Source: Pedobacter psychrophilus
GTDB taxonomy: Bacteria; Bacteroidota; Bacteroidia; Sphingobacteriales; Sphingobacteriaceae
Direction of reading: 5' to 3'
DNA length: 64,000 bases
Assembly (NCBI RefSeq): GCF_001652725.1
Contig: NZ_LWHJ01000031.1
Location: forward strand, 1 to 64,000
In this document: positions 28,457 to 50,717 of the stretch, piece by piece
How the letters are laid out: every line of letters begins with the position of its first letter
Numbering within the stretch: position 1 is the first letter of the stretch
Program-made: the position numbers and the translations under genes
The notes under the pieces: generated by a model
Seen by the model: only the letters and a program-made list of their open reading frames with translations
What the model was told of the DNA's origin: nothing
Databases searched by the model: none

Positions 28457-28918
28457 TTATTCTATTGTTATGCTTCCTTTTTTTCCAATGTTTACATGTT
28501 TGTCAAAAGTAAAGTCAAAATGTTTTGCGTTACCTTTTTCGCCTTTTAATTTTTCTGTTAGTCGTCCGTATTCTTTTCCGTTTTCATCAAAGATTTTAAT
28601 GGTAATTTCTTGATCAAAGTTGTCGTTGAAAATAAAGTATGCAGTTAAAATATTGTCAGTAGTTGAGTTTGAAGAATTAATTAAAACTTCGCCAAGTTCA
28701 AGTCCTTTCTCTTTTAATTGGTCAGAAATTTTTACGTCATTATCAAAAGTCTTTTTCACACCTTTGTAAATTCCTTCGCCAAATTCAGAGCCTGTTTTCC
28801 CAACAATTTCGCCTGTTTTGTTAACAGCTTTTTTTGTCTTGTCCTTAGCCCAATCGCAAGATGACAATGCTAGTGTCAAAACCGATAATGTCATTAATAT
28901 TGATATTGCTTTTTTCAT
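28457..28918 (-). CDS. Hypothetical lipoprotein, 153 aa (cassette-borne candidate)
   Basis: A lipoprotein with signal MKKAISILMTLSVLTLALSSC, Cys21 being the lipid site. A Lys/Gly-rich amphipathic segment (KDKTKKAVNKTGEIVGKTG, EFGEGIYKGVKKTF) follows, then a small beta domain (about 95-153) with YFIFNDNFDQEITIKIFDENGKEYGR and HFDFTFDKHVNIGKKGSI. The N-terminal part resembles short periplasmic lipoproteins seen in many Bacteroidota, but I cannot name a family. It follows the attC-like site at 29006-29139 after an 87-bp leader and converges with the GlxA regulator. It is probably part of a cassette pair with the gene at 29146-29997. Confidence 0.65.
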   Translation of the reverse strand: MKKAISILMTLSVLTLALSSCDWAKDKTKKAVNKTGEIVGKTGSEFGEGIYKGVKKTFDNDVKISDQLKEKGLELGEVLINSSNSTTDNILTAYFIFNDNFDQEITIKIFDENGKEYGRLTEKLKGEKGNAKHFDFTFDKHVNIGKKGSITIE

Positions 28919-29005
28919 TTTTTTTTGTTTAGATTTTATTTGTTTTATAATTGTCGTCTATGTTTAGGTTTCAAGTTTTCTATTTGGGTGCGTCTCTTTA
29001 CTTGC

Positions 29006-29139
29006 ACCTAACGGTTTAAGGCTTGGCGATGGTGGGGCATTTGGAAAACGTCAGCCCAACCTTTGCACAAATGCCCAATAGTAGCACAAATGTTGAATTT
29101 ACTACTGTCTGCCCCACTATTGCCAAACCGATGTTGTAT
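29006..29139 (-). other. attC-like folded recombination site, 134 bp
   Basis: Read on the minus strand, the ends are ATACAAC (R''-like, one mismatch to RYYYAAC) and GTTAGGT (perfect match to the R' consensus GTTRRRY). Inside these, CGGTTTGGCAATAGTGGGGC (29131-29112) is complementary to the inner right arm at 29013-29039, except for a 7-nt bulge and two G-U-type changes. About 70 nt of loop separates the arms. Size, end boxes, imperfect stem with a bulge and placement 7 bp after a stop codon all fit integron attC sites. A transcription terminator is less likely because there is no U-tract. Confidence 0.6.
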
Positions 29140-29145
29140 GCAGTT

Positions 29146-29997
29146 TTAATAATACTCAATCCTTCTAAATTCAGTCCAATAATTTTGATTTGTAAACTGT
29201 AAACGGTATTTCCAATTTTCCCCGTCGTATAAATATTTATACTCTGTTTTTTGTATTGGCTTTCCCACATATTTGCTTATACTAACTATTTCATTTCCAT
29301 ATTCGTCAAATTCTTTTTCAAAATATACTTGATAGGAAGAGTCCTCTTTTGACAACAATTCAAAGTTTATTCTATGTTGTATTTCTTTGCCCCTTTTGTC
29401 AAGTCTTACAAAATGTCTTTCGGCTAAGATTCCTTCTTTATTTATTCTGTCTTCAACGTAGCTGTACTCGTCTTTCCATTCATATATTCTAGTTTCCTTT
29501 TTAGCGTCATCATTATATGACTCATATTCATCCTTTATTTTTTGTTTTTTACTATTATAATTAATTTTATTCCTTGCCCAAAAACCTGAACTGTCAAATG
29601 TTCCATAATAATGTAAAGACTCGACTAACAAATTATTTTCGTAAAGATATTTTGAAAGATAAGTTTTAGTAAGAGGTTTATTATAATAGTTTTTGAAAGT
29701 CAATAATTCTATAGGGTTTTTGTTATTGTCAAACTTTCTTTCTATTATATTATCTGGATTCATTTCTCTGTCAAACCCATTTTCTTTTATAATGTTTCCA
29801 TTTGTGTCAAAATTTTCAACTTTATATAATCCTATTTTTATTTTAAAAATTTCGTCTGACTTATTTGGTTCTGATTTGCCGTCAACCCTGTAATATTCAA
29901 TACTTTTTATTTTTCTTTCTTTCATTTTGTATGAGCAACTAATTGTCAAAATAATAATTGCGAAAAGATACCGATAATCAAATTTTATAATTCTCAT
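29146..29997 (-). CDS. Hypothetical lipoprotein, 283 aa, YD-repeat-like (cassette-borne candidate)
   Basis: A 283-residue putative lipoprotein: MRIIKFDYRYLFAIIILTISC gives a type II signal. The mature part is rich in Tyr, Lys, Glu and Asn and has loosely repeated strands such as YKVENFDTNGNIIKENGFD, KYLYENNLLVESLHYYG, KEFDEYGNEIVSISKYVG and YKYLYDGENWKYRLQF. These recall RHS/YD-type beta strands or toxin-immunity-like lipoproteins; no family name is secure. The stop is 7 bp from the attC-like site, as in integron cassettes, and its 5' side is bounded by GTTGTATGCAA at 30040-30030. By eye its codon use differs somewhat from the neighbouring housekeeping genes. Confidence 0.65.
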   Translation of the reverse strand: MRIIKFDYRYLFAIIILTISCSYKMKERKIKSIEYYRVDGKSEPNKSDEIFKIKIGLYKVENFDTNGNIIKENGFDREMNPDNIIERKFDNNKNPIELLTFKNYYNKPLTKTYLSKYLYENNLLVESLHYYGTFDSSGFWARNKINYNSKKQKIKDEYESYNDDAKKETRIYEWKDEYSYVEDRINKEGILAERHFVRLDKRGKEIQHRINFELLSKEDSSYQVYFEKEFDEYGNEIVSISKYVGKPIQKTEYKYLYDGENWKYRLQFTNQNYWTEFRRIEYY

Positions 29998-30082
29998 ATT
30001 TCATTTTAAGATTTTGAGGTTTCTGCAAATTGCATACAACTTACATATATATCCAATTCCCCCCTAACCATCATTCCCGTAT

Positions 30083-30214: not shown

Positions 30215-30556
30215 ATGACAAATTTAAGAAACAGTGTAAGATTAATCGGATTTTTAGGTTCGGCACCAGAAGTAAAGGAATTTTCTGCAACAAAGAAAAT
30301 CGCCAAACTAAATTTAGCCACTAATGATTCGTACAAAAATGAAAAAGGAGAGAAGGTAGAAGAAACCCAATGGCATCAATTGGTAATGTGGGATAAGCAA
30401 GCAGATATTGCTATTAAATATCTACAAAAAGGCAGTGAAGTAGCCATAGAAGGAAAACTGGTAACCCGAACTTATAATGATAAAGAAGGGGTTAAACGTT
30501 ACGTTACTGAAATTGTGGTTAATGATTTTGTTTTATTGGGTAAAAAACCAGCTTAA
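30215..30556 (+). CDS. ssb: Single-stranded DNA-binding protein, short form
   Basis: A 113-residue OB-fold protein. The ATG at 30215 gives the canonical start (LRNSVRLIGFLGSAPEVK); an upstream in-frame ATG at 30146 adds 23 unlikely residues. The family core is intact: KIAKLNLATND, TQWHQLVMWDKQADIAIKYLQKGSEVAIEGKL and RYVTEIVVNDFVLLG. It stops immediately after the OB fold and lacks the disordered linker and acidic DDDIPF-type tip that recruits partner proteins in E. coli SSB. Such short SSBs are common in Bacteroidota and are usually an accessory to a full-length SSB encoded elsewhere. A small coiled-coil gene follows after 97 bp. Confidence 0.9.
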   Translation: MTNLRNSVRLIGFLGSAPEVKEFSATKKIAKLNLATNDSYKNEKGEKVEETQWHQLVMWDKQADIAIKYLQKGSEVAIEGKLVTRTYNDKEGVKRYVTEIVVNDFVLLGKKPA

Positions 30557-50454: not shown

Positions 50455-50533
50455 AAGTTTAGAAATTTGTTTTCATTAAAACCTTACCTTTATAAATTAA
50501 TTGTGGTTTAGTTATTTTTTTATTTGCGTTAAC

Positions 50534-50594
50534 GATTGAAGCGGTATCCTTTTTTTTATTTTCAGAAAAAAAGATTTAGCGGAAAGCGTGTTAT
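50534..50594. repeat. AGCGG-type paired intergenic element
   Basis: GATTGAAGCGG (50534-50544) and GATTTAGCGG (50573-50582) are direct repeats flanking a CTTTTTTTT...AAAAAAAG hairpin. The element is followed by GCGTGTTATAACGC (50586-50599), which contains the palindrome GTTATAAC. I recognise this arrangement as a recurring Bacteroidota intergenic element. It may act as a terminator or small structured RNA; its role is unknown. It lies in the 282-bp gap between divergently transcribed FUSC and DEAD-box genes. Confidence 0.4.
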
Positions 50595-50717
50595 AACGCC
50601 CTAATTAATAATTGGTTTTTAATGATGATCATTCAAAATAGATGGAGATGATTATTATTATAAGCATCAAATTGAATATAAACCACTCTTTTTTATTAAC
50701 ATTAATAAATTAAAAAA

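Follow-up and report, generated by a model that had tools for sequence, protein, structure and literature searches.

Do bacteria of the phylum Bacteroidota capture genes by a route comparable to that of integrons, which are treated as mainly proteobacterial and are defined by their integrase IntI? The question is raised by a folded intergenic site on the minus strand of a 64,000-nucleotide stretch of the Pedobacter psychrophilus genome (contig NZ_LWHJ01000031.1, positions 1 to 64,000; hereafter the window), where an original prediction had proposed an attC-like site between two lipoprotein genes. We put at about 90% the probability that positions 29004-29141 form a recombination site by which a gene cassette, itself mobile and part of an integron-like system, is closed. 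That this is an attC-like cassette boundary is supported, well past what the original prediction could draw on, by copies beside different open reading frames (ORFs), tandem arrays, strand polarity of the hairpins, matched cassette ends, an attI-like motif, linkage and orientation relative to an adjacent integrase, and repeated cassette copies in one genome. We further consider it likely that the system represents a separate, phylum-wide Bacteroidota integron class, with HARP-type or short integrases devoid of the IntI domain, its own attI, and its own hairpin sites without extrahelical bases. Such a class would have escaped standard searches, which depend on the IntI domain and on the classical model of attC.

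The window site and its family

The site lies on the minus strand and is organized as follows:

29004..29141 (-): attC-like recombination site, whole, with homologues first found by BLAST (model R1, 129.4 bits, E 8.5e-27, a score that is not independent, as the site is among the 21 training sequences of R1)
29133..29141 (-): R''-type box GCATACAAC, pairing with the start of cassette 1
29111..29130 (-): left stem arm CGGTTTGGCAATAGTGGGGC, from fold and covariation
29039..29110 (-): variable terminal loop region, of lowest conservation within alignment A1
29019..29038 (-): right stem arm GCCCCACCATCGCCAAGCCT, from fold and covariation
29004..29012 (-): R'-type box G^TTAGGTGC, start of cassette 2

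The end boxes named in the original prediction, ATACAAC and GTTAGGT, are found at 29139-29133 and 29012-29006, and the placement is cassette-like as it had proposed, some 6-7 nt past a stop codon (29146-29148) and 87 nt ahead of a start codon at 28918. The long complementary arms likewise stand, pairing gaplessly over 19-20 bp (29111-29130 with 29019-29038) and covarying in relatives, but the proposed 7-nt bulge does not: the asymmetry is that of a 2-nt versus a 6-nt spacer between end box and stem. The window site folds only moderately better than its shuffled counterparts (z -2.1 and -2.4 for the two strands); the decisive support is comparative. The site matches no Rfam family, no T-run terminator is called at it, and an inverted-repeat search around it detects nothing because of mismatches. 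An 84-aa ORF spanning the hairpin (29016-29270, minus strand) is probably spurious.

The additional copies that the original prediction called for are present: a BLAST search with the window site returns them in its own genome and in 16 of 60 relatives, each flanked by two different genes. Model R1 gives at least 30 matches in the P. psychrophilus genome (at least 29 full-length), which form arrays on contigs C1 and C3 or lie dispersed in other places, and it matches 95 of 151 genomes of the family. With model R2, sites are detected in 143 of the 296 Bacteroidota genomes sampled and in 84 of 140 genera, all per-genome counts being lower bounds. The outside-phylum control, 39 genomes of named loci of which several hold true IntI, is devoid of sites under model R2. 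The sites range from ~90 to 205 nt in length and lie between genes in tandem arrays, which in a related genome (G019) make up the entirety of some contigs. Alignment of 21 sites yields a 17-bp consensus stem, 16 of whose 17 pairs change on both sides across 125 sites, where 94.9% of pair cells are standard versus 32-45% when slid.

In common with attC, these sites feature a bottom-strand hairpin with an unpaired spacer and a variable terminal structure. In 121 of 124 sites, however, the stem aligns gaplessly over ~19 bp and is free of the extrahelical bases that attC sites carry on the R''-L'' arm (PMC2727003). Scored with a script that demanded AAC and GTT themselves, the R'' box fits RYYYAAC in 17 of the 124 and the R' box fits GTTRRRY in 18, the family consensus of the latter being GTTRNNNGY; the perfect GTTRRRY match claimed for the window site is thus genuine but incidental. 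Spacers measure 1-2 and 5-6 nt. With these departures, and with an associated integrase that lacks the IntI domain, the site does not qualify as an integron attC in the strict sense.

The mismatches of the inner stem are strongly polarized in the 124 sites, with A.C on the gene (top) strand, that is G.T on the bottom strand, 202 times and the reverse 3 times; outer stem positions 4-5 feature the opposite pattern (59 to 1). By predicted energy the bottom strand is the more stable one in 80 of 124 sites, which is a weak bias; the window site itself is slightly more stable as the top strand. The mismatch pattern favours a model in which the bottom DNA strand would fold, and its 202:3 polarity argues against an RNA structure such as a terminator.

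Cassettes and the attI-like site

Circularization of an integron cassette joins its two ends, so that the few bases following the G^TT of its start complement the box preceding the AAC of its end. Across 94 cassettes from 27 loci, with a median length of 670 bp, the ends match at a mean of 5.45 of 6 positions, versus 2.79 for permuted partners and a maximum of 3.30 in 20,000 permutations; a first version of the test, on 31 of those 94, gave 5.58 versus 2.94, and the two boxes inside one site agree at chance level (2.97). Such matching is the integron signature, and the low scores at loci L228 and L124 and in part of contig C1 are best explained by unrecognised sites in between. As on an integron platform, the cassettes are short, run in one direction and carry their own matched ends. 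In the window, they and their surroundings are laid out as follows:

30215..30556 (+): single-strand binding protein-like (ssb) gene, diverging from the attI side and outside the cassette (ORF, named by eye)
30038..30052 (-): attI-like insertion point ATATATATGTAAG^TT, putative crossover G30040^T30039 (motif match)
29012..30039 (-): cassette 1, 1,028 bp, TTGTATGC ... gene ... GCATACAAC + hairpin + G (6/6 complementarity between opening and closing box)
29146..29997 (-): cassette-borne lipoprotein-like gene, 283 aa (ORF; no Pfam family)
28457..29011 (-): cassette 2, with a start, TTAGGTGCAA, typical of cassettes (compared with other cassette starts); gene at 28457-28918, 153 aa

The 283-aa protein has no Pfam match and no relative in 150 other genomes of the family. 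The closing box and hairpin of cassette 2 were not found, there being no matching GCACCTAAC box within 2.5 kb. Cassette cargo elsewhere includes a type IIG restriction enzyme, a SIR2-type defence protein, an OLD-like nuclease, hydrolases, and an HTH protein beside a HigB-like toxin, the toxin being named by eye. In G019, a 269-bp cassette without an ORF is repeated end to end in about ten copies of 86-93% identity on several contigs, while other matches cover the hairpin only; the moving unit is the cassette with its site rather than the site alone. Contigs C5, C21, C24 and C26 of that genome feature very dense arrays with 51 matches to one cassette with hairpin, as well as repeated ORF-less 85-bp cassettes.

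At the head of the window cassettes, AYATATATNYAAGTT has its single match in the window precisely where cassette 1 begins, against an expectation of 0 from 100 shuffles. Of 24 arrays surveyed, most have an attI-like box that matches that of the first site 6/6 and lies 60-180 bp from the integrase gene; in a few further arrays the box match is slightly farther from that gene or reaches 5/6. In close relatives the box is preceded by ATATATNNAAG (motif ATATATNNAAG^TT), and in P. psychrophilus itself contig C27 carries the same motif and a cassette start 99 bp past the integrase gene before the contig ends. The arrangement, with exact box match and conserved motif beside the integrase at the start of the first cassette, is that of an integron attI. 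At a paralogous ssb locus of the same genome (contig C30:137328-137839), the same junction leads into other cassettes, the cassette there being perfectly matched, and homology between the two ssb loci ends at G^TT, beyond which the cassettes differ. For the window cassette, a search of the genus via the ssb region for an orthologous empty site yielded no clean empty attI. The first cassette on contig C30 (locus L209) is closed by a second site subtype, AGCAAATTTGTACAAAAATGGC...GCCATTTCTGCACAAATTAGC. The window also holds a Flavo-1 RNA (Rfam RF01705, 57.3 bits; 50518-50597, plus strand).

The associated integrase

A tyrosine recombinase gene heads the arrays, as in integrons: of 30 candidate integrases, 21 have hairpin sites within 8 kb, versus 0 of 10 control recombinases (Fisher p 1e-4); all 67 sites are oriented away from the integrase gene, and the latter lies on the cassette strand at 18 of 21 loci. 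In P. psychrophilus the candidate is a 347-aa protein encoded on contig C27. Two forms are found, one of ~345-540 aa whose N-terminal part is similar to HARP repeats (in one copy, Pfam PF07443 matches weakly, E 2e-4, below cut-off), the other of ~279 aa without it. The spacing from GLRxxE to HxLRHS is 91-97 aa, versus 133 aa in IntI1, IntI2 and eight other IntI proteins, which indicates that the IntI insertion of ~41 residues, an additional domain described as necessary and as defining IntI (PMC9668308), is missing here. Phylogenetically, IntI forms one clade (100/99) and Xer another (100/100), while the array-linked integrases cluster with moderate support (86/89). In its predicted structure (pLDDT 85) the integrase best matches XerA and IntI4, superposing on the latter (2a3v), and its C-terminus reads SPFD/SPLD, as in IntI. 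The integrases narrowly miss the NF040815 cut-off (203.8 against 220), and no protein in the 60 relatives exceeds that of TIGR02249, a marker of no use here because its hits to tyrosine recombinases turn up in every genome and every control.

Among the named hosts are Flavobacterium aciduliphilum, Algoriphagus ornithinivorans and Aquiflexum, and a Chryseobacterium plasmid (locus L304, NZ_CP041688) carries the platform with three sites, which suggests that the platform can be mobile. In another genome (G033), two loci (L058, 11446-12658; L059, 7434-8643) have a hairpin site at 150 bp from an IS91-family transposase that comes with a tyrosine recombinase of its own; IS91-assisted cassette capture is possible there, and this recombinase was weighed as the enzyme moving the cassettes but not retained.

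Taken as a mechanism, the bottom strand of the site would fold into a hairpin, and a tyrosine recombinase, here probably the 347-aa C27 protein, would cut it at G^TT. Joining of the cut site to attI would amount to insertion, and joining to another hairpin to excision or shuffling. On the attI of the window, the recombinase would presumably act in trans.

Alternative readings and significance

Of the competing explanations, the one we rate highest, though still as unlikely, accepts the cassette system and assigns the movement of cassettes to XerC/D or to an IS91-linked enzyme, with the HARP-type recombinase a bystander. All of these are related tyrosine recombinases, and the G033 enzyme does sit close to two sites; yet it is the candidate that stands at array heads next to an attI, in different families as well as on a plasmid, whereas control recombinase loci are without sites. 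Somewhat less credible still is a textbook integron, in which a canonical IntI would act on the site as its attC. The G^TT junction, the R''/R' layout, the cassettes and the attI all correspond, as do the integrase C-terminus and its superposition on IntI4, but the shorter catalytic spacing, the separate IntI clade, the TIGR02249 result, the missing extrahelical bases and the rarity of GTTRRRY contradict it.

That the sites are dispersed repeats of MITE or REP type, spread by a transposase and spaced like cassettes by chance, would fit their copy number, palindromic nature and intergenic location, but hardly one-direction tandem arrays, end matching within each cassette, the attI junction, integrase linkage, or a moving unit that includes the cassette; the end-matching test already contradicts it, and we regard it as highly improbable. 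A transcription terminator, or some other RNA structure conserved along with the upstream gene, would fit an inverted repeat directly past a stop codon, but this reading is contradicted and has a negligible chance of being correct: no hairpin with a T-run is called at the site, copies stand behind unrelated genes, A.C falls in the RNA-like strand and G.T in the other, and such a structure offers no place for cassette-end matching. The original prediction had named such a terminator, or the lack of a second copy, as grounds for abandoning it, and neither was encountered.

Several points nonetheless weigh against a mobile cassette of an integron-like system. The window attI is adjoined by the ssb gene, with no integrase beside it, and the C27 integrase lies at a contig end, so that its connection to the arrays on C1 and C3 is indirect. 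Sites are missing from 9 of 30 integrase loci, several of which end at a contig edge; some R1 training sites adjoin integrases, though they were first found via similarity to the window site; and arrays in related genomes are not independent events. Recombination and excised circles are, moreover, predictions from sequence.

An integron-like system nevertheless remains our preferred reading. With integrons such as the Vibrio superintegron it has in common a tyrosine recombinase with attI beside its gene, one-direction arrays of short hairpin-closed cassettes, the G^TT junction, matched cassette ends, a variable terminal loop and bottom-strand polarity. It differs in an integrase without the additional domain and usually on the cassette strand, in sites without extrahelical bases, in its R' consensus and in its spacers. 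Integron-like and Xer subgroups have been delineated among simple tyrosine recombinases (PMC8138268), and the Bacteroidota integrases score near NF040815, 'site-specific tyrosine recombinase/integron integrase', one of them being so named in a plasmid record; no description of cassette arrays or att sites for these subgroups was found in that article, and most of the integrases here carry an N-terminal HARP-like domain. IntegronFinder 2.0 reported one complete Bacteroidetes integron, in Salinibacter ruber (PMC9024848); those rare integrons belong to the same phylum and the same general kind of platform, while the system described here is found in roughly half of the genomes sampled. No description of it was found in the open-access literature, preprints being outside that search, and its novelty is accordingly provisional.

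If the reading is correct, a gene-capture system comparable to integrons would be common across a major bacterial phylum, its cassettes carrying defence and toxin-antitoxin-like genes. It would also render an old question testable, namely whether the additional domain of IntI is needed for the recombination of folded single-stranded sites or is one of several solutions.
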